Shown in pieces: positions 6,857-29,658 of a DNA stretch of 32,402 nucleotides. Position numbers and translations under genes: made by a program. Where the stretch lies: NCBI GenBank assembly GCA_012960465.1, contig DUBF01000053.1:1-32402 (forward strand). Direction: 5' to 3'. The stretch's first letter is position 1, and each line of letters begins with the position of its first letter. The notes under the pieces were generated by a model, which saw nothing but the letters and a program-made list of their open reading frames with translations, made no database searches and was not told the DNA's origin. This DNA is from Rhodospirillales bacterium. GTDB taxonomy: Bacteria; Pseudomonadota; Alphaproteobacteria; Rhodospirillales; UBA2165.

Positions 6857-8074
6857 TTGGACGCTGACAATAACATCAACCAACTAGTTTCGGAAACCTC
6901 CTTAGTGCAAAAAGAAGGTCAAAATTATAACCGTCGCCAACCAACAGTAATGCAAGTATTACCCAAATTAATAACAGGTGGGGTTGAACGGGGTACTGTA
7001 GATATTGCAAGTGCTGTTGCCGAAGGTGGAGGTCGCTCTTTGGTTGTTTCTGCTGGTGGGCCTATGGTTCACGAATTAAAACGCTCAGGCGTAGAGCATT
7101 TTGAGCTACCCGTCTCTAGCAAAAATCCCCTAACCATGAAACAAAATGTAAAGCGTCTGATAAACATAGCACAAGACCAAAAAGTAGATATTATACATGC
7201 CCGATCACGCGCTCCAGCCTGGAGTGCTTGGCACGCCGCTCGTAAAACTAACAAATTTTTTGTCACCACATTTCACGGAACATATGGACATAGCAATTGG
7301 TTTAAAAGACGGTATAATGAGATCATGACTAAAGGTGATAGAGTTATCGCTATCTCAGATTTTATCGCCGGTCATATTCTAAGAATTTACGGTATCCCGT
7401 CTTCTAACATCAGAATAATCCCTCGTGGCATTGATATTAAAAAATTTAGCCCTAATAACGTTAGCCAAGAGCGGCGTATCAAACTAGCTAGTGAATGGCG
7501 CCTACCCGATGACAAACCAATCATTATTTTACCCGCCCGACTCACACGTTGGAAAGGACACACAGTTTTTTTAAAAGCAATAAAAAAGCTTGGCCGAAAC
7601 GACATACAATGCCTAATCGTGGGGTCAGATCACGATCGCAAAGATTATCGGCGTGAACTAGAACGTCAAATCGAAATTTACGGAATGCAGGAAAATATCC
7701 ATGTCGTAGGACATTGCAATGATATGCCAGCGGCATACATGTTGACCGATATAGTCATTTCTGCCTCGACGGATCCGGAAGCCTTTGGCCGAATAATGAT
7801 TGAAGGACAGTCACTCGGTCGCTTGGTAATTGGCACTAACCATGGTGGCTCAACGGAGACTGTCATAGAAGGTCAAACTGGCTGGCTGATAAAACCTAAC
7901 GACCCTGACATATTGGCTGAAACTATAAACAAAGTTCTAAACTTAACGGAACTACAAAGGGGGAAAATTTCCAAAACCGCAAGTGAGCATATTCAAAGAT
8001 ATTATTCCAAGGAAATAATGTGTGCTAAAACGCTTGATGTTTATAATGAGTTGATTTTAGGCAACCGTTCATAA
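6857..8074 (+). CDS. Glycosyltransferase family 4 (GT-B fold)
   Basis: 405 residues from a TTG start. An ATG at 6950 just before QVLPKLITGGVERG would be a shorter alternative of 374 residues. The sugar-acceptor half starts with the GGVERG loop (about 41-46). The donor half contains ILPARLTRWKGH and the retaining GT4 signature EAFGRIMIE (E308 and E316, the EX7E pair), then GTNHGGSTETV, typical of nucleotide-diphosphosugar binding. It presumably transfers a hexose to a lipid-linked or LPS-core acceptor at the cytosolic face of the membrane. The GT9 gene starts 2 bp after its stop, so the two are co-translated and probably act in one glycan pathway. Confidence 0.88.
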   Translation: MDADNNINQLVSETSLVQKEGQNYNRRQPTVMQVLPKLITGGVERGTVDIASAVAEGGGRSLVVSAGGPMVHELKRSGVEHFELPVSSKNPLTMKQNVKRLINIAQDQKVDIIHARSRAPAWSAWHAARKTNKFFVTTFHGTYGHSNWFKRRYNEIMTKGDRVIAISDFIAGHILRIYGIPSSNIRIIPRGIDIKKFSPNNVSQERRIKLASEWRLPDDKPIIILPARLTRWKGHTVFLKAIKKLGRNDIQCLIVGSDHDRKDYRRELERQIEIYGMQENIHVVGHCNDMPAAYMLTDIVISASTDPEAFGRIMIEGQSLGRLVIGTNHGGSTETVIEGQTGWLIKPNDPDILAETINKVLNLTELQRGKISKTASEHIQRYYSKEIMCAKTLDVYNELILGNRS

Positions 8075-8076
8075 CC

Positions 8077-9015
8077 GTGGTCGATGCACAAAAAATTCTA
8101 GTAATTAAATTGGGTGCCCTTGGTGATTTTATTCAGGCGGCTGGGCCCTTTAAGGCCATCCGCCTTTATCACCGAGCTGAGAGAATTACTCTTTTAACAT
8201 CGGCAGATTTCGCGGATCTAGCTAATGCTTCTCCTTGGTTTGATCAAGTTAAAATTGATTATAAGCCGAAGGCCCGAGAAATTACAAAGTGGTTATCACT
8301 TCGGAAATGGATTCGTAACGCTGGTTTTACACGTATCTATGATTTGCAAACTTCTGATCGCAGTAATTTTTATTACAAAATGATCAAACCCATAAATAAA
8401 TTAAACCCGAGACCTGATTGGTCTGGTATCGCTCCCGGTTGCTCTCACCCACACAATAATCTCGATCGTGATTTAATGCATACGATTGAACGTCAAAAGG
8501 AACAACTCCTATTAGCTGGTATTGATAATGTACCATCAGGAGATTTTTCCTGGATCAATACAGATATTGAACATTTTGACTTAAATAATACCTTTGCGCT
8601 TCTTGTTCCAGGCGGGGCTACCCATCGGCCTGCCAAACGTTGGCCTAGCCAATACTACCAGCAATTAATCCAATATTTTGCATCAAAAAAAATTCAAGTT
8701 GTTTTAATCGGCGGGAAAGAAGAAGAACCATTATTAAATAAGCTGGCAACAACAGATCCAACTTGCGTCTCCCTAGCAGGGGCTACAACCCTTCTTGATT
8801 TATTTTCTATAGCGCAAAAATCACAAGTCGCAATTGGTAATGACACAGGTCCGATGCATGTGGCGGCCGTAAGTGGGTGTAAAACAATTGTTTTATATGC
8901 CTCTGAATCTGACCCCGTACTCTGTGCCCAGCGGGGTGATGACGTAACAATCTTCCGAAAAAATACCTTATCTGATATAATGCCAAGTCAAATAATAAAA
9001 TCCATAGCCCGATAG
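8077..9015 (+). CDS. Glycosyltransferase family 9 (heptosyltransferase-like)
   Basis: 312 residues, starting with GTG 2 bp after the GT4 stop. The N-terminal ILVIKLGALGDFIQA (residues 6-20) and the C-terminal GNDTGPMHVAA with GCKTIVLYASESDP are the classical ends of the ADP-heptose:LPS heptosyltransferase family (WaaC/WaaF/RfaF). LLVPGGATHRPAKRWP in the middle is the donor-domain entry. Family members add heptose to Kdo or to inner-core heptose on the cytosolic side of the inner membrane. The exact sugar is not certain, since many alphaproteobacterial GT9 proteins are uncharacterised. The adjacent GT4 gene suggests a small LPS-core or surface-glycan operon. Confidence 0.88.
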   Translation: MVDAQKILVIKLGALGDFIQAAGPFKAIRLYHRAERITLLTSADFADLANASPWFDQVKIDYKPKAREITKWLSLRKWIRNAGFTRIYDLQTSDRSNFYYKMIKPINKLNPRPDWSGIAPGCSHPHNNLDRDLMHTIERQKEQLLLAGIDNVPSGDFSWINTDIEHFDLNNTFALLVPGGATHRPAKRWPSQYYQQLIQYFASKKIQVVLIGGKEEEPLLNKLATTDPTCVSLAGATTLLDLFSIAQKSQVAIGNDTGPMHVAAVSGCKTIVLYASESDPVLCAQRGDDVTIFRKNTLSDIMPSQIIKSIAR

Positions 9016-16461: not shown

Positions 16462-17502
16462 ATGACCAACCTAAATAATATAGCACATTTTGTTGGCAGT
16501 ATTCCTTTAAACTCTTCTGAAGAAGTATTTTGTTCTATCTGTGATACACTCGGTAGCCATGTTAAGCGAGTTCCAGATGGCGAGACAGGCGAGCGAACCA
16601 ATTGGATCTTTTTTCAGCGCCAAATGTTAGTAAAACACCCTGATATGGAACCTGATACTGGTATCCCAAAATTTAAGTTCAAACAATGGGATGGCAAAAT
16701 AATACGCGAAGTTGAGTTGCTAAAGATTAAAGATAATGTAGATCTAGACAAACTAATCTTTCCAATTGGTTATTCAGAACATGCTATAGAATCTTTCAAA
16801 GATTTTGACCGGCTCCAATTGGATGGTAAAATCCCATCGGATATTAAATTTCAGGTAAGCCTTCCGACACCTTTTGCAACCGGTTATAATTATATAAGTC
16901 CTAATGGACGCAAAGAATTCCTAAAAGTCTATGAAAAGTCCTTCGCCGTCGATGTGCAGAAAATTCTTGAGTCAATTCCCCATAAAAAACTGGCAATCCA
17001 ATGGGATGTCTGCCAAGAAATTCTAATATTTAATAATTATTTTCCTGGTCGATCAGAAAATTACAAAGATGAGATCTTTAGTCAGTTGACTCGAATTGGC
17101 AACATAATCCCGGCAGATGTAGAGCTTGGTTACCATATGTGTTATGGAAGCCCCGGCGATGACCACGTTGTTAAACCAAAAGACTTTGCAATGTCGGTTG
17201 AATTTGCCAATGGCATCTTCAATAACATTGATCGGTCTGTTGAATTTATTCACCTACCAGGCACTCATGGACAACCCGGAAATGAGTTTTATGAACCCCT
17301 CAAAGATCTAGAAATGCCAGAAAACTGTGAAATCTACCTCGGTCTTCTATTTTTTGACGATATAGAAGGTGACAATAAGCGTATCGCAGCTGCTCGGAAA
17401 GTCCTACCCAACTTTGGAATATCAACTGTGTGCGGCTGGGGGCGTGCAAACCCAGAACGAGTGCCAAGCTTGCTTAACAGTCACAAAGTAATTTTTAATT
17501 AG
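16462..17502 (+). CDS. MetE-core-like (cobalamin-independent methionine synthase C-domain) protein
   Basis: 346 residues. I recognise the UROD/MetE-like barrel rather than a named enzyme. The start VGSIPLNSSEEVF, with RVPDGETGER soon after, is typical of stand-alone proteins of this fold. The zinc site of MetE seems kept: HMC (H225 and C227, compare the HMC of E. coli MetE), a glutamate candidate (E247 or E261) and C324 in VCGWGR. It lacks the N-terminal half of full MetE, so it would not work alone with folylpolyglutamate as MetE does. Core-MetE proteins in other microbes transfer methyl groups from other donors, but the donor and acceptor here are unknown. It starts 5 bp after pheT with AGAGGA 9 bp before its ATG, so it is probably the last gene of the pheST operon. 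Confidence 0.7.
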   Translation: MTNLNNIAHFVGSIPLNSSEEVFCSICDTLGSHVKRVPDGETGERTNWIFFQRQMLVKHPDMEPDTGIPKFKFKQWDGKIIREVELLKIKDNVDLDKLIFPIGYSEHAIESFKDFDRLQLDGKIPSDIKFQVSLPTPFATGYNYISPNGRKEFLKVYEKSFAVDVQKILESIPHKKLAIQWDVCQEILIFNNYFPGRSENYKDEIFSQLTRIGNIIPADVELGYHMCYGSPGDDHVVKPKDFAMSVEFANGIFNNIDRSVEFIHLPGTHGQPGNEFYEPLKDLEMPENCEIYLGLLFFDDIEGDNKRIAAARKVLPNFGISTVCGWGRANPERVPSLLNSHKVIFN

Positions 17503-20480: not shown

Positions 20481-21887
20481 TCAGCTATGAAGCGCCCGAT
20501 TATCAACATCAAGGGCTGCTTCTTTAACTACTTCGCTGAGCCCAGGATGACCGTGGCAGGTTCTAGCTATGTCTTCAGCAGAACCACCAAATTCCATAGC
20601 AACAATACATTCTTGGATCAACTCACCGGCAGAGGCTCCAACAATATGGACACCTAAAACCTCATCAGTTTCACTATCTGCAAGTATTTTAACGAAGCCA
20701 TCGGTAGAACTCATCGCACGGGCCCGGGCATTAGCGGTAAAATTAAATTTACCCACATTATAAGCCACGCCCGCTTTTTTGAGCTGTTCTTCGGTTTTTC
20801 CAACGGTCGCAACTTCTGGCCAAGTGTAAACAATACCAGGTACAGCATCATAATTAATATGACCAGATTGGCCAGCCAACATTTCCGCTAAAATAACGCC
20901 CTCATCCTCGGCTTTATGCGCTAACATCATTCCGCCAATTACGTCGCCAATCGCATATATTCCGTTAACATTAGTCTTAAAACCATCTGTAGTTTTAATA
21001 AAACCACGATCCATTTCAACACCAATTTTCTCCAGCCCCAGACCATCCGTATAAGGGCGACGACCGATCGCCACTAGAACACAATCTGCTTTTATTTCTT
21101 CAATGTCGCCACCATCTCTAGGCTCCACTTTAAGGGTTACACTCGATTTACTTGTTGTGGCCCCAATAACCTTACTTTTCATTCTAAATTTTAAGCCCTG
21201 CTTTTTTAGAGAACGTTGCGCAATCTTTGAGACCTCTGCATCCGATCCAAACAAACAAACATCGAGAAACTCAATAACTTCAACGTCTGCACCTAAACGG
21301 CGCCAAACTGACCCAAGTTCTAGACCAATCACACCGGCTCCAATAACAATCATTCTCTTTGGTACTTTTTTTAAAGTTAGGGCTCCAGTTGAGCTTACTA
21401 TCAACTTTTCATCTATTTCTACACCTGGCAGCGGTGCAACGTCGGAGCCCGTAGCAACTACAATATTTTTTGTTGTTATCGTCTTAGACTCACCTTTGTC
21501 ATCAGTCACATTTACTGAACCAGGAGCAATAATAGAACCCGTACCAAAAAATCTCTCAATTTTATTTTTCTTCATCAGATAATCAACGCCATTGACAGTA
21601 TCACTCACAACACTATCTTTGTGACCCATCATAGATTTAAGGTCGAGTTTTACGTTACTGGCAATTACGCCGTGTGCCGCCATACCCTCAGTAGCCTCTT
21701 CAAAGAGGTGCGAAGAATGAAGTAATGCTTTTGAAGGAATACACCCAACATTAAGGCAGGTGCCGCCGAGGGTTGGGCGTTTTTCGATAATCGAAACTTT
21801 TAAACCTAACTGGGCAGCGCGAATGGCCGAAACGTAGCCGCCAGGTCCAGCTCCGATATACGTGACGTCGTTAGTTGTGTCAGCCAT
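20481..21887 (-). CDS. lpd: Dihydrolipoyl dehydrogenase (E3)
   Basis: 468 residues. The FAD motif GAGPGGY (12-18) opens the protein. The redox-active pair C44 and C49 lies in GGTCLNVGCIPSK. The NAD motif GAGVIGLELGSVW is in the middle, and the His-Glu pair of the partner active site is H447 and E452 in HPGLSE. E3 reoxidises the lipoyl arm of 2-oxoglutarate (and usually pyruvate) dehydrogenase, reducing NAD+. It is the last subunit of the suc block, starting 34 bp after the sucB stop. A second lpd for pyruvate dehydrogenase may exist elsewhere. The SpoIIAA-like gene follows 10 bp later. Confidence 0.96.
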   Translation of the reverse strand: MADTTNDVTYIGAGPGGYVSAIRAAQLGLKVSIIEKRPTLGGTCLNVGCIPSKALLHSSHLFEEATEGMAAHGVIASNVKLDLKSMMGHKDSVVSDTVNGVDYLMKKNKIERFFGTGSIIAPGSVNVTDDKGESKTITTKNIVVATGSDVAPLPGVEIDEKLIVSSTGALTLKKVPKRMIVIGAGVIGLELGSVWRRLGADVEVIEFLDVCLFGSDAEVSKIAQRSLKKQGLKFRMKSKVIGATTSKSSVTLKVEPRDGGDIEEIKADCVLVAIGRRPYTDGLGLEKIGVEMDRGFIKTTDGFKTNVNGIYAIGDVIGGMMLAHKAEDEGVILAEMLAGQSGHINYDAVPGIVYTWPEVATVGKTEEQLKKAGVAYNVGKFNFTANARARAMSSTDGFVKILADSETDEVLGVHIVGASAGELIQECIVAMEFGGSAEDIARTCHGHPGLSEVVKEAALDVDNRALHS

Positions 21888-21921: not shown

Positions 21922-23451
21922 CTACATATCAAGCATAATACGTTGTGGGTTTTCAATACATTCTTTAATTCGCACCAACATAGATACAGCTTCACGGCCA
22001 TCAACAATCCTATGATCGTAACTATGGGCGAGATACATAATTGGACGTACTTTAATATCCTCACCCACAACCCATGGGCGCTTAACAATATTATGCATGC
22101 CAAGGATACCAGATTGCGGCGCATTAATAATTGGCGTTGAGAGCATCGACCCGTAAATACCACCGTTGGTAATAGTAAAACTACCATCAGTCATCTCATC
22201 AAGAGACAGCTGACCATCTCGCGCGCGTCGACCAAAATCTTTTATGTTCTTTTCAATATCTGCAAAACTCATTTGATCAGCGTTCTTTAGAACAGGCACG
22301 ACCAACCCTGTTGGCGTTCCGACAGCCACACCTATATTGTAATAATTCTTGTAAACAATTTCATCACCCTGAATTTCAGCATTTACAGCAGGAAATTCTT
22401 TTAAAGCGACGATAGCAGCTTTGACAAAATAACTCATAAAACCAAGCCGCACCCCATGTATTTTTTCAAATTTTTCCTGGAATTCGGCGCGTGCGTCAAT
22501 AACAGCTGACATATCAACTTCATTAAACGTAGTCAGCATAGCCGCTGTGTTTTGTGCTTCTTTTAAACGTCCAGCAATTACTTTTCGTAGGCGAGTCATT
22601 TTTACTCGTTCCTCACGAGGGCCTGCTGGTATCGAAGGGATCTGAGTACGCGCAGAATCCGCAACGTCTGGGGAATGTGCTAGTGATACGGCTTCTGTGA
22701 CCGATTTAGAAATACCCAATCCACTATTTACTTTCTGGAACGCCAATACATCACCTTTTGTTAGACGTCCGTCTTTGCCCGTGGCAGGGATCTTCGTCGC
22801 GTCAAAACCTTGGTCTTCAATAATTTTTCTAACGGCTGGAGACATTTGGATGTCATTGCTCAAAACCATCTCCGAAGGTTCAGATGCAGATACCGTCGAG
22901 GCGGGTATTTTAGCCCCATCAGAACTGCCAAGCCTCCCGAGAGCCGCGCCGACCTCCACCTCGTCTCCAACGTTAGCGAGTATTTCAATCAGGTTTCCGG
23001 CGATTGGCGCATTCACCTCGATTGTAACTTTGTCAGTTTCGAGCTCCAACAGTGGTTCATCGAGAGCCACTGCATCTCCAACGACTTTAAGCCAATTCGC
23101 AACAGTACCTTCGGTTAAACTTTCACCAAGAACTGGGACAACAACATCGATAGATTTTCCATCACTTACAACGAGATCAGCCTCTTTAGCACGCGTAGGC
23201 GCGTTTGCTTCAACACTCTCGTCAATCAATCCTAAAATACCGCCAACTTCAACCTCTGCACCAGCAGCAGCAGTGATTTCTGTTAGTGTGCCAGCGACCG
23301 GTGCGTTAACTTCCATTGTAACTTTATCAGTTTCAAGTTCGAGAATAGGCTCATCAATGGCAACAGTATCACCTACAGATTTTAGCCAATTTGCAACCGT
23401 ACCCTCGGTCAGAGACTCCCCTAATGTCGGTACTTTAATTTCAGTAGCCAT
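21922..23451 (-). CDS. sucB: Dihydrolipoyl succinyltransferase (E2o) with two lipoyl domains
   Basis: 509 residues, against about 400-420 for most proteobacterial E2o. The excess is a second N-terminal lipoyl domain: residues 1-77 and 101-175 are two copies, each with the lipoylated lysine in ETDKVT (K43 and K141). By hand count about 53 of 73 aligned residues are identical. A linker leads to the peripheral-subunit-binding domain (around MSPAVRKIIEDQGFDATKI, then ATGKDGRLTKGDVLAF), which holds E3. The catalytic domain ends with HRIVDG (H480 and D484). The enzyme transfers succinyl from the lipoyl arm to CoA. It lies between sucA and lpd, as expected of the 2-oxoglutarate dehydrogenase complex. 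Confidence 0.96.
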   Translation of the reverse strand: MATEIKVPTLGESLTEGTVANWLKSVGDTVAIDEPILELETDKVTMEVNAPVAGTLTEITAAAGAEVEVGGILGLIDESVEANAPTRAKEADLVVSDGKSIDVVVPVLGESLTEGTVANWLKVVGDAVALDEPLLELETDKVTIEVNAPIAGNLIEILANVGDEVEVGAALGRLGSSDGAKIPASTVSASEPSEMVLSNDIQMSPAVRKIIEDQGFDATKIPATGKDGRLTKGDVLAFQKVNSGLGISKSVTEAVSLAHSPDVADSARTQIPSIPAGPREERVKMTRLRKVIAGRLKEAQNTAAMLTTFNEVDMSAVIDARAEFQEKFEKIHGVRLGFMSYFVKAAIVALKEFPAVNAEIQGDEIVYKNYYNIGVAVGTPTGLVVPVLKNADQMSFADIEKNIKDFGRRARDGQLSLDEMTDGSFTITNGGIYGSMLSTPIINAPQSGILGMHNIVKRPWVVGEDIKVRPIMYLAHSYDHRIVDGREAVSMLVRIKECIENPQRIMLDM

Positions 23452-23492
23452 GATTTCCTCATTTTACAGAATTGATTGTATCCTTTAACAAA

Positions 23493-26414
23493 CTATTTTA
23501 TCGGGATGTATGGTTGCACAATATCGCTTTCTTTTCCATTTAAAGCCTGATCTATCAAGAAAGCTTGTTCTTTATTATGTATTTTTAGTGCACCCGTGGC
23601 CGGGGATGCAGAGGCCCGGCGACCAACGTATATAACGTTTCTACGTCGCTTGGTTTTTTGATCCAAGTTATTTAGGATATAATTTAAGCGATCGCTCACA
23701 AAATGCCACGAACCTTGATTTGAGGGCTCTTCCTGCGACCAAACAACGTCAGCATTAGAGTACTTGGAAATTTGCTCGGTTATACTGCCTCGAGGCCATG
23801 GATAAAGCTGTTCAACGCGTATAATTACTACATCCTTGATGTTTTGTTGACGCCGCGCTTCAAGTAAATCAAAGTAAACCTTACCTGAACATAAAATAAC
23901 CCTTTTGATCTCACTATCCTCTTGAAGAGTATCAATCTCAGGAATGATCCGACAGAACCCTGTGCCGGGACCCATCTCATTCAACCTCGAAATGTTGAGC
24001 TTATGGCGTAGCAAAGATTTTGGCGACATAACTATTAACGGTTTGCGAAAATTTCTTTTGACTTGGCGACGCAAAGCATGAAAAAAGTTCGCGGGTGATG
24101 TGATGTTTACAACCTGTAAATTATCTTCGGCACAAAGTTGCAAAAAACGCTCTAACCTGGCTGAGGAATGTTCCGGACCTTGGCCCTCCATACCATGGGG
24201 CAGAAGCATAACAAGACCCGACATACGCAACCACTTAGATTCACCAGAAGCAATAAATTGATCAAATATAACTTGAGCGGTATTTGCAAAATCACCAAAC
24301 TGGGCTTCCCAGATTGTTAGCGTCTCAGGCTCAGCTAAAGAATAACCATATTCATACCCTAATACAGCAAACTCTGAGAGTGGGCTGTCCATGACTTCAA
24401 AAGGCGCCTGTTTACTTGGATTAATTTGGCTAAGTGGAAAGTAACGATTTTCATTTTCCTGATCGGTGATCACTGCATGGCGATGTGAAAACGTGCCTCT
24501 ACCAGAGTCCTGACCCGATAATCTCACGGGATGCCCATCCATGAGAAGCGATCCGTAGGCCAAAGCTTCGGCCATGGCCCAGTCGATACCCTCTCCTGTA
24601 TCCATCATTATAGATTTAGCTTTGAGTTGCCGAATGAGTTTGTTATTTACATTGACTTCTTCGGGCACGCGCGCCAGTGAATTACCAATCTCTGTGAGCC
24701 TACCTAACTCAACAGCTGTATCATCATCACGTTTTTCTTCTTCGCCTTCTAAAGCAGAAAGACCTTCCCATTTACCTTCAAGCCAATCGGCCTTATTGGT
24801 TTTATAATTTGGTGCAGCCTCAAATTCATCATCAAGGTGAGAACGAAAAGTAGCCTCAACGCGTTCTATTTCTTCAAGCGTTATCAACTCTTCTTTAATC
24901 AATTTTTTCCGGTAAATTTCTCTTGTCGTTGGATGCTTGGCAATCGCCGTATACATTTTAGGCTGGGTGAACATAGGTTCATCGCCTTCGTTATGACCAT
25001 GCCTGCGATAACAAAAAAGATCAACGATTACGTCTCGTTTAAACTTTTGGCGAAACTGGGCTGCAAGGTCAGCCACCCTTACCACGGCTTCAGGATCATC
25101 TCCATTAACATGAAAAATAGGCGCTTGCATACCCTTTGCAATATCCGTTGGATATGGCGTTGAGCGCGAGCTAGAGGGGTTCGTGGTAAAACCAATTTGA
25201 TTATTCACAACGACATGGATCGTACCACCAGTTCGATAACCCTTAATTTGGGATAAATCGAGACTTTCTGGAACAATGCCTTGCCCCGCAAAAGCTGCAT
25301 CACCATGCATTAAAAGACCCATGACTTTATCCCTCGCCTCGTCACCCCGTTGTGCTTGTTTAGCTCGCACCTTACCAAGTACAACTGGATTAACACATTC
25401 TAAATGAGAAGGATTTGCTGTTAATGAAAGATGCATTAAACCTTCTGTAAAATCTCTATCGGCGGAAGCCCCCAAATGATACTTTACGTCCCCAGAACCT
25501 TGTACATCTTCTGGGTGAGCTGAGTTTCCCTGAAATTCGCTAAAGATGGCCACATAAGGTTTACCCATGGTGCGCGCGAGGACATTCAATCTACCTCGAT
25601 GCGGCATACCAATAACAACTTCCTCAACTCCTACAGACGCTGCAGATCGAAGCACACGTTCCATAAATGGGATAAGGCTTTCACCGCCATCCAAACCAAA
25701 TCGTTTGGTCCCGGTATGTTTCATCTGGAGATAAGTTTCAAATCCTTCAGCCTCAACTAAATCTTTATAAATTGCTCTCCTTAGATCCGGTGAATAATTA
25801 GACTTATAATCTACACCTTCGATATTTTGCTGAATCCAAGCGCGCTCCTCCATCTCTTGAATATGCATATACTCAACGCCAATAGAACTACAATAAGATT
25901 CACGCATAGTATCCAAAATCTGTCGTAAGGTAGCTATTTTTTTACCACCCATAGCTGTGATGGTGTCGAGATAAATTTCCTTATCAAGATCTTCTTCAGT
26001 AAATTCGTAAGATTTATAATCAAGCTCCTTGTGGTAGCCTGCCCCTACTAAACCTAATGGATCAAACTGCGCATGAAGATGACCCCTCACTCGATAAGAG
26101 CGAATAAGTATCCGTGCCCGAATAGAACGTTTTGCAATTTCATTAACCTGATCTGATGAAACATTGGAACTCACATGATTAGAGTGCTTCACAGCTTGAT
26201 CTGGCTCACCCGCACCAATTATGAATGTATTAGAACGCGCCCAACTGGCTCCTTTAATATCGCTTTTGATCAAGAGCGGATCATCATCTAAGTCAGTAAA
26301 CACATTAACCCAACTCGGATCCACTGAGTTTGGATTTTCTAGGTACCGCTCATACAATTCAGATATGAAAGCTCCATTTATTCCGGTGAAGATTGTATCC
26401 ACGGATTCCACCAT
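23493..26414 (-). CDS. sucA: 2-oxoglutarate dehydrogenase E1 component
   Basis: 973 residues. The N-terminus MVESVDTIFTGINGAFISELYE binds E2 in the family. Core motifs for the thiamine-diphosphate site include MPHRGRLNVLA, GDAAFAGQGIVPESLDLSQ with the metal-binding NNQIGFTT, and RRHGHNEGDEPMFTQP. RLSGQDSGRGTFSHRHAV and the C-terminal VWSQEEPSNQGSW complete the transketolase-like half. E1o decarboxylates 2-oxoglutarate and succinylates the lipoyl arm of SucB. It lies between sucD and sucB with short gaps (39 and 41 bp). Its length is a little over the E. coli protein (933), with the extra residues spread through the protein. Confidence 0.97.
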   Translation of the reverse strand: MVESVDTIFTGINGAFISELYERYLENPNSVDPSWVNVFTDLDDDPLLIKSDIKGASWARSNTFIIGAGEPDQAVKHSNHVSSNVSSDQVNEIAKRSIRARILIRSYRVRGHLHAQFDPLGLVGAGYHKELDYKSYEFTEEDLDKEIYLDTITAMGGKKIATLRQILDTMRESYCSSIGVEYMHIQEMEERAWIQQNIEGVDYKSNYSPDLRRAIYKDLVEAEGFETYLQMKHTGTKRFGLDGGESLIPFMERVLRSAASVGVEEVVIGMPHRGRLNVLARTMGKPYVAIFSEFQGNSAHPEDVQGSGDVKYHLGASADRDFTEGLMHLSLTANPSHLECVNPVVLGKVRAKQAQRGDEARDKVMGLLMHGDAAFAGQGIVPESLDLSQIKGYRTGGTIHVVVNNQIGFTTNPSSSRSTPYPTDIAKGMQAPIFHVNGDDPEAVVRVADLAAQFRQKFKRDVIVDLFCYRRHGHNEGDEPMFTQPKMYTAIAKHPTTREIYRKKLIKEELITLEEIERVEATFRSHLDDEFEAAPNYKTNKADWLEGKWEGLSALEGEEEKRDDDTAVELGRLTEIGNSLARVPEEVNVNNKLIRQLKAKSIMMDTGEGIDWAMAEALAYGSLLMDGHPVRLSGQDSGRGTFSHRHAVITDQENENRYFPLSQINPSKQAPFEVMDSPLSEFAVLGYEYGYSLAEPETLTIWEAQFGDFANTAQVIFDQFIASGESKWLRMSGLVMLLPHGMEGQGPEHSSARLERFLQLCAEDNLQVVNITSPANFFHALRRQVKRNFRKPLIVMSPKSLLRHKLNISRLNEMGPGTGFCRIIPEIDTLQEDSEIKRVILCSGKVYFDLLEARRQQNIKDVVIIRVEQLYPWPRGSITEQISKYSNADVVWSQEEPSNQGSWHFVSDRLNYILNNLDQKTKRRRNVIYVGRRASASPATGALKIHNKEQAFLIDQALNGKESDIVQPYIPIK

Positions 26415-26453: not shown

Positions 26454-27329
26454 TTAGCGCTTCATTGTTTCTAGCATGGTACTACCCAAAGTGGCTGGTG
26501 AATCAGCAACATTAATACCGGCGCTACGAAGCGCCTCAATCTTGTCCATCGCACCACCTTTTCCACCAGCTATAATCGCTCCAGCATGACCCATACGACG
26601 CCCTGGAGGTGCCGTAACACCGGCTATAAAGCTAACCATTGGTTTTTTTATTTTCGATGATTTTATAAAATCAGCGGCCTCTTCTTCTGCAGAGCCACCT
26701 ATTTCACCAATCATAATTATACCTTCAGTTTCTTTATCTCCAAGAAACAATTCTAAACAATCAATAAAATTAGTGCCATTAACGGGGTCACCGCCAATAC
26801 CAATACATGTCGTCTGACCTAAACCGACTTTCGTGGTTTGTCCAACTGCTTCATAAGTCAACGTGCCAGACCTCGAGACAACACCGATTTTTCCTCGTTG
26901 GTGGATATGACCTGGCATAATACCTATCTTACATTCTCCTGGGGTTATAATACCGGGGCAGTTTGGGCCAACCAGCCTAGTCGATGAGCCTTCTAACGCG
27001 CGTTTAACTTCAACCATATCTAAGACAGGAACACCCTCGGTGATACATGTCACCAGAGGAATTTCACAATCGATAGCTTCAAGAATAGCTTCCGCCGCAA
27101 AAGGTGGCGGCACATAAATTACAGTGGCATCAGCACCAGTTTCTTGGACGGCATCAGCAACTGTATCAAAAACAGGAAGATCAAGGTGGATTGAGCCTCC
27201 CTTGCCTGGAGTTACTCCACCGACCATGTTTGTACCATAAGCAATTGCTTGCTCAGAATGGAAAGTCCCTTGGGAGCCAGTGAAACCCTGACAAATCACT
27301 TTAGTATCTTTATCAACTAAAACAGCCAT
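26454..27329 (-). CDS. sucD: Succinyl-CoA synthetase alpha subunit (ADP-forming type)
   Basis: 291 residues. The CoA-binding Rossmann half shows [16 protein letters not shown] and [14 protein letters not shown]. The phosphorylated histidine is H248 in [14 protein letters not shown], near E. coli H246. It forms the SucCD heterotetramer that makes succinate, CoA and ATP (or GTP) from succinyl-CoA. It starts 1 bp after the sucC stop, so the two are translationally linked. sucA follows at 39 bp. Confidence 0.97.
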
Positions 27330-27330
27330 T

Positions 27331-28530
27331 TTATGCAGCCTCCGCTACAGCTTTAACTACTTTTACAGCTGCATCACCTAGGTCATCCCCTGAAATAATC
27401 GGTAACCCTGATTTCGCTAATATCTCTTTTCCACGGTCAACATTTGTACCTTCAAGACGAACTACGAGCGGCACGTTAAGCGATACTTCTTTAGCAGCAG
27501 CAACAACTCCCTCGGCTATCACGTCACACCGCATAATACCGCCAAAAATATTTATAAGAATTCCTTCGACATTAGGATCAGATAAAATAATTTTAAAAGC
27601 TGTGGTTACCCGCTCCTTAGTAGCCCCGCCACCAACGTCCAGAAAATTTGCTGGATCACCTCCGTGAAGTTTAATAATGTCCATGGTAGCCATAGCCAAC
27701 CCTGCGCCATTAACCATACAACCAATGCTACCATCTAATTTAATATAATTTAGATCGTGACGTTCTGCCTCGAGTTCTGCAGCATCTTGTTCATCTCCAT
27801 CACGCATCTCTTCAACATCTTTATGACGATAAAGCGCGTTATCATCAAAGTTCATTTTTGCATCGAGTGCCACTACTTCACCTGCTTTTGTGACAACCAT
27901 CGGATTAATTTCAATTTGACTGGCATCCATGTCGACAAATGCTCTATACATAGCCATCAAGAATTGCACAGCAGATTTAACTTGATCGCCAGAGAGACCA
28001 AGCCCAAAAGCAATTTTGCGAGCGTGGAAATTTTTTATTCCTGTCGCTGGGTCAATAGCAATCGTTTTAATTTTTTCAGGAGTTTTGGCAGCAACCTCCT
28101 CAATATCCATACCGCCTTCTTGACATGCGATTATAGTCACCCGTGACGTTGACCTATCAATCAACAAACTGAGATAAAGCTCACGATCAATATCACAACC
28201 ATCCTCAATATAAACACGCTTAACCTCTTTACCCTCAGGCCCAGTTTGATGGGTTACCAACGTTGCACCAAGCATTTGATTAGCAGCTTTTTTGACATCA
28301 GCAACAGATTTTACAACCCTAACACCACCTGCACTGCCAGCGGTGTCTTCTTTAAATTTACCCTTACCGCGGCCACCTGCATGGATTTGCGATTTAACGA
28401 CCCAAATTGGCCCGCCAAGCTCCTTAGCGACTGATTCGGCTTCCGCTGCAGTATATGCAACTGCACCTTTAACTACGCTTACACCGCATTTGGATAAGAC
28501 TTGCTTTGCTTGATATTCATGAATGTTCAT
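27331..28530 (-). CDS. sucC: Succinyl-CoA synthetase beta subunit
   Basis: 399 residues, in line with the family (about 390). It begins with [17 protein letters not shown], the standard N-terminus of the ATP-grasp nucleotide-binding domain. GGRGKGKF is the glycine-rich nucleotide loop, and EINPMVV plus [12 protein letters not shown] provide the Mg-ATP ligands. [15 protein letters not shown] and [16 protein letters not shown] form the C-terminal CoA-ligase half. It pairs with SucD. It follows mdh after 63 bp. Confidence 0.97.

Positions 28531-28593: not shown

Positions 28594-29658
<1,065 letters not shown>

Follow-up and report, generated by a model that had tools for sequence, protein, structure and literature searches.

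In Escherichia coli, the E2 component (E2o) of the 2-oxoglutarate dehydrogenase complex, a central enzyme of the citric acid cycle, has one lipoyl domain. The sucB gene of a Rhodospirillales bacterium (genome G000) encodes an E2 with two, raising the questions of what kind of E2 this is, what a second lipoyl arm would do, and when the second domain arose. The gene was examined in the window, meaning here the whole 32,402-nucleotide stretch of DNA analyzed, and in related genomes. We consider it very probable that the protein is a normal E2o in which an old tandem duplication doubled the N-terminal lipoyl domain, earlier than the separation from the sister genome G002 and probably earlier than the diversification of the genus, and that both arms would be lipoylated and redundant.

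Architecture and identity of SucB

The sucB gene lies on the minus strand, a detail absent from the original prediction made for this DNA. Pfam recognized two Biotin_lipoyl stretches, one E3_binding domain, and one 2-oxoacid_dh domain in its product, and the features are as follows.

21922–23451, minus strand: sucB, E2o dihydrolipoyllysine-residue succinyltransferase, 509 amino acids, two lipoyl domains (PRK05704 and TIGR01347 scores)
23224–23442, minus strand: lipoyl domain 1 (LD1), residues 4–76, K43 codon at 23323–23325 (best stretch of Pfam PF00364, residues 4–74)
23149–23223, minus strand: linker between the lipoyl domains, residues 77–101 (pLDDT below 50 at residues 80–98)
22930–23148, minus strand: lipoyl domain 2 (LD2), residues 102–174, K141 codon at 23029–23031 (second PF00364 stretch, 22933–23145)
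22744–22848, minus strand: peripheral-subunit/E3-binding domain, residues 202–236 (Pfam PF02817)
21931–22617, minus strand: catalytic succinyltransferase core, residues 279–507 (Pfam PF00198, 2-oxoacid_dh)

SucB scored 640 bits against PRK05704 (curated NCBIfam cut-off, 449) and 592 bits against TIGR01347 (NCBIfam equivalog cut-off, 378.65), well above both, and fell below the cut-offs of the pyruvate dehydrogenase (PDH) E2 models PRK11854 (396 against 722 bits), TIGR01348 (281 against 552), and TIGR01349 (255 against 445). Actinobacterial SucB-type E2 proteins (TIGR02927) have several lipoyl domains; the score against that model was 414.1 bits, just under its cut-off of 423.45 and far lower than the score as a proteobacterial SucB. 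The third-ranked Foldseek match was the E. coli E2o core (1scz), with further fold matches to 1e2o and 1c4t, and H480 and D484, which we take to be the catalytic His/Asp motif, are invariant in 29 of 29 aligned two-domain E2o proteins. SucB is a normal 2-oxoglutarate dehydrogenase E2 with an E2o-type catalytic core. It shares this core, the E3-binding domain, the E2o-type lipoyl domain, and the sucAB-lpd neighborhood with proteobacterial SucB/OdhB (TIGR01347, PRK05704), and differs from them in having two lipoyl domains instead of the single domain that is usual for, but does not define, this type.

The original prediction described tandem copies at residues 4–76 and 102–174, identical at about 53 of 73 positions and each bearing an ETDKVT lysine. 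A gap-free alignment returned exactly that count, and K43 and K141 both lie within the motif. The local alignment of the copies scored 272, and the best of 500 shuffles of the second copy scored 63. Domains, family scores, and alignment thus bear out a tandem duplication within the gene for a genuine E2o. The likeness is real, but “nearly identical” overstated it, with 73% of residues and 139 of 219 bases (63%) shared. The accessible part of one review puts the number of lipoyl domains per E2 chain at one to three depending on species (PMC6270654). The nearest described parallel is E. coli PDH E2p (AceF), whose lipoyl domains are given as 73% identical and able to act redundantly in the part of the source available (PMC8421416); as in SucB, they stand in tandem ahead of the binding and catalytic domains, but AceF has three of them and is an acetyltransferase, and SucB stays below the PRK11854 cut-off.

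The neighboring genes are on the same strand, with sucA, sucD, sucC, and mdh upstream of sucB and lpd downstream. The identities of sucC, sucD, lpd, and the sdh genes beyond mdh are presumed from their sequences.

23493–26414, minus strand: sucA, E1o, 973 amino acids, with a 2-oxogl_dehyd_N N-terminus (Pfam)
26454–27329, minus strand: sucD (open reading frame and translation)
27331–28530, minus strand: sucC (open reading frame and translation)
28594–29646, minus strand: mdh, malate dehydrogenase (Pfam Ldh_1_N and Ldh_1_C)
20481–21887, minus strand: lpd, dihydrolipoamide dehydrogenase (E3) (open reading frame and translation)

The sucA-sucB and sucB-lpd adjacencies are kept in eight relatives wherever the contig reaches, and the order of sucC and sucD is the same where reached. 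Directly after lpd lies a SpoIIAA-like gene (PF11964; 20114–20512, minus strand), whose position is kept in seven of the eight relatives, the contig of the eighth ending inside sucB. Past its Pfam domain, the mdh product extends by about 35 residues into a C-terminal tail rich in lysine. The gene was reached in three relatives, and in these the match ended at residue 303, perhaps in part an effect of low-complexity filtering. A 346-residue open reading frame (16462–17502, plus strand) has no Pfam match, a 263-residue open frame antisense to sucB (22697–23488, plus strand) was taken as a by-product of codon use, and Rfam returned no match over the window.

Proposed working of the two lipoyl arms

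In an AlphaFold model of SucB alone, LD1 and LD2 are each built of seven strands, with the lysine in a turn between strands 35–40 and 45–49 in LD1 and strands 133–138 and 143–147 in LD2. Ten-residue pLDDT means are 85–92 in LD1 and 86–91 in LD2 up to residue 170, falling to 69 for residues 171–180. Low-confidence linkers occupy residues 80–98 and 178–200. With an overall pTM of only 0.43, no meaning attaches to how the domains are positioned relative to one another. K43 and K141 are invariant in the alignment of 29 two-domain E2o proteins, and among the 43 distinct two-domain E2o proteins listed, every one has the lipoyl lysine in each copy; the second copy reads ETEK rather than ETDK in two of them (L071 and L173).

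Judged from these sequences, both domains are most likely lipoylated and act redundantly. Either arm would carry succinyl groups from E1o to the E2o core and be reoxidized by Lpd. The E2o core is a 24-mer, and with K43 and K141 both modified, a two-domain version would display 48 arms rather than 24. The accessible part of PMC7448341 gives 24 lipoyl domains for the 2-oxoglutarate dehydrogenase complex. A higher lipoyl-arm capacity, as the original prediction proposed, is plausible, and any benefit would probably be small, a matter of reach or redundancy. The gains and losses described below fit equally well with a domain number that rises and falls without strong selection. One congener, G003, whose only domain is of the LD1 type, is among the seven single-domain genomes of the 21 in the family that have an E2o, which indicates that the second arm is dispensable.

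Such one-domain congeners and relatives, and the lability of domain number, would also suit a protein in which only one domain functions and the other is a relic or spacer. This is very unlikely given that the lysine is retained in an ET[DE]K context in both copies of 43 of 43 proteins and that both domains of the window protein appear complete in the model.

Lipoyl domains of pyruvate dehydrogenase and the question of a hybrid E2

The original prediction also raised the possibility of a hybrid E2 serving more than one E1, and the PDH genes of the same genome bear on it. Their order is, by our assignment, pdhA, pdhB, pdhC, and lpd, followed by a lipA-like gene, and two of them are relevant here.

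L037 (contig C164 of G000), 7261–8232: PDH E2, 323 amino acids, without a lipoyl domain (Pfam)
L037, 5887–7251: PDH E1beta with an N-terminal lipoyl domain, upstream of the PDH E2 gene (Pfam)

Pfam found an E3-binding domain (residues 25–60) and a catalytic domain in this PDH E2, and no lipoyl domain. The genome, about 99% complete, yielded no second PDH E2, and the PDH contig yielded no other lipoyl match. The sister genome G002 (L205) has the same pattern up to its contig end. Twenty genomes of the family gave a PDH E2 match; 17 of these proteins have a lipoyl domain, those of G000 and G002 do not, and that of G014 is a fragment at a contig end. Nine further genomes of the order were opened for PDH, eight of them chosen for short frames among the matches listed. 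G235 and G237 (f29) and G031 (f9) have a lipoyl domain on E1beta and none on E2, so the pattern probably arose more than once. G236 has no lipoyl domain on E2, and E1beta is absent from the piece examined; the loci of G044 and G045 run into contig ends, as does G042, where part of a lipoyl domain remains. The G175 piece contains an E2p-like and an E1-like frame, neither with a lipoyl domain, and G232, from the same genus as G235–G237, has lipoyl domains on both PDH subunits. Among the open-access titles and abstract openings listed in the literature searches, none reported a PDH E2 without a lipoyl domain, which is weak evidence of absence.

Proteins of another kind were met among the two-lipoyl matches. 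L201 (G446, C1:1473000–1477000, minus strand) is a 436-residue frame that contains two lipoyl domains, and inspection by eye suggests an E3-binding-like stretch as well; none of the three E2 catalytic references matched it. Similar matches of 423–459 residues occur in G502, G415, G908, G912, G867, and G1024. We regard these proteins as reminiscent of protein X of mitochondrial PDH.

A hybrid E2, in which LD2 would serve the PDH or a branched-chain E1, could be called for by a PDH E2 that lacks a lipoyl domain in G000 and, in its visible part, in G002. Hybrid complexes are known; actinobacterial OdhA is described as using E2p lipoyl groups in trans in the part of PMC10415282 available. The reading is nonetheless decidedly unlikely. 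The PDH E1beta of G000 has a lipoyl domain of its own, and the genome encodes a separate branched-chain- or acetoin-type E1alpha/E1beta/E2 set. The mean score of LD2 was 227 against 71 single E2o domains, 168 against 6 branched-chain-type domains, 132 against 17 E2p domains, and 116 against E1beta domains, of which only 2 were compared. Both SucB domains contain LGESL, in contrast to LSPTM in the E2p and E1beta domains shown. Both domains score far nearer to E2o lipoyl domains than to those of PDH or branched-chain type, and by score and LGES loop the added arm resembles another arm of E2o. In the congeners G001, G004, and G005, E2p bears a lipoyl domain and E2o nevertheless bears two; a two-armed E2o thus occurs alongside a normal PDH E2, and the traits are not coupled. 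A broader scheme, in which the lineage moves lipoyl arms between complexes, with E2o having gained one, PDH E2 having lost its only one, and pyruvate oxidation running on the E1beta arm and perhaps borrowing E2o arms in a joint PDH/2-oxoglutarate dehydrogenase assembly, would be highly improbable. The PDH E2 without a lipoyl domain is more interesting than the two-armed E2o.

Age and distribution of the second domain

The preferred reading, an old tandem duplication in a normal E2o, differs from the original prediction over age, because that prediction took the duplication to be recent. LD1 and LD2 agree at only 33% of third codon positions and use the same codon at 16 of 52 identical residues (Met and Trp excluded); synonymous sites look saturated. 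The original prediction proposed comparing the DNA identity of the repeats with that of orthologues, and this comparison went against recency, with 84% for LD1-LD1 and 78% for LD2-LD2 between G000 and G002 and 63% for LD1-LD2 within G000. Amino acid identities across genomes, calculated in a 72-residue frame, were 90% for both orthologous pairs and 74% for LD1-LD2 within G000. Because the orthologous domains are closer than the two copies within G000, the duplication predates that split. For the same reason there is no sign, against G002, of gene conversion homogenizing the copies within species.

Deeper in the genus the signal weakens. Orthologous domains are 83–89% alike and cross pairs 74–82% alike in comparisons with G001, G005, and G008, and one cross pair, LD1 of G000 with LD2 of G001 (82%), is as similar as some orthologous pairs are. 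Against the far congeners G004 and G007, the values are 65–71% for orthologous domains and 64–65% for cross pairs, a difference so small that identities alone no longer decide. In a lipoyl-domain tree (calculated without L152, L116, and L129, and with the two halves of the G006 protein entered separately), the LD1s of the genus group together (82/70), as do its LD2s (99/72), neither branch being starred. With this moderate support, the duplication probably occurred before the genus diversified, a dating that is less sure than the one before the G002 split. Tree tests left three hypotheses unrejected: a single origin of all second domains (p 0.197), a single origin for the family (p 0.478), and a duplication on the stem branch of the window's genus (p 0.23). 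In family f49, the LD1s are sister to the LD2s (92, unstarred), a topology for which an independent duplication and an old conversion would both account.

A recent duplication confined to this organism, for which the 73% protein identity of the copies might speak, is hardly credible given the third codon positions, the closer orthologous domains in G002, and the presence of the two-domain form at full length in six of eight congeners and split over contig ends in G006. As for an artefact of assembly, the genome is fragmented into 245 contigs, one of which makes up the entire window, but the copies differ at 37% of bases, and the same architecture in separately assembled relatives, some on few contigs (about 3 in G015, 1 in G039), makes a duplication by assembly very unlikely, and we give it almost no credence.

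Among 24 genomes of the family, 13 have two domains in one frame, seven have one, and three have no E2o-like match; in the remaining genome, G006, LD1 and LD2 lie at the ends of two contigs, making it a probable 14th two-domain genome. The original prediction named a form common across Rhodospirillales as counting against it, and this holds in part: among 317 genomes of the order, at least 33 (G006 included), spread over four families, have two domains. Outside the window's family these are one genus of f17 (6 of 6), genera g48 (8 of 8), g47 (1 of 3), and g49 (3 of 5) of f21, and f26 (1 of 3); two of these 19 genomes have incomplete frames (G085, 362 residues; G088, 180 residues). Relatives include the metagenome-assembled Rhodospirillales/Rhodospirillaceae TMED23, RIS_SAG_35, and SI053_bin87. 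A class-wide draw of 387 genomes contained at least 16 others, all 16 of which, when opened, had two lipoyl domains and an E2o-type core; one, G339, was recognized only on opening. In a phylum-wide draw of 396 genomes, at least 59 besides the window's gave a single match that extended across both domains, in a frame of at least 488 residues, many in f49 and some outside the class (f199, f210, and f222). Of these, 29 were opened, and 29 of 29 had two lipoyl domains and scored best as E2o. Other f49 genomes gave one-domain matches only (e.g., G526, G832, and G971). The counts for order, class, and phylum are lower bounds; one two-domain protein may appear as two entries. An apparent E1o-E2o fusion in G032 (1,061-residue open frame) was discarded, its upstream part being, by eye, an out-of-frame read-through.

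On a catalytic-domain tree, domain number changed at least 11 times. The tree holds 98 of 125 E2o sequences, with Pelagibacteraceae thinned to one in ten, drawn from best-match lists and not a random sample; it was a quick tree with SH-aLRT support only, 41 of 95 inner branches starred, and some long-branch warnings. Within the window's genus, the single domain of G003 (L020/L107) is identical in protein to LD1 of G005 and G008 and is followed by a linker resembling the one after their LD2, as if LD2 had been cleanly deleted. G010, with two domains, and G020, with one, also share a genus. Separately, LD2 of f17 (L021, L072) groups with LD2 of f116 (L168, L197, L199) at 100/99, and their catalytic domains lie apart; one lipoyl domain may have been transferred or exchanged between the lineages.

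None of the open-access titles and abstract openings listed in the literature searches reported a two-domain proteobacterial E2o, which is weak evidence of absence. The statement in the original prediction that proteobacterial E2o has one lipoyl domain describes most matches listed but has many exceptions in the order, class, and phylum. The two-domain E2o recurs among lineages and is an ordinary form of a known enzyme, no new system. The shorthand of one lipoyl domain per proteobacterial E2o is thereby corrected, as the number is labile and both forms occur within single genera. The one- and two-domain pairs within genera (that of G003, and G010 with G020) are natural material for asking whether extra arms matter.
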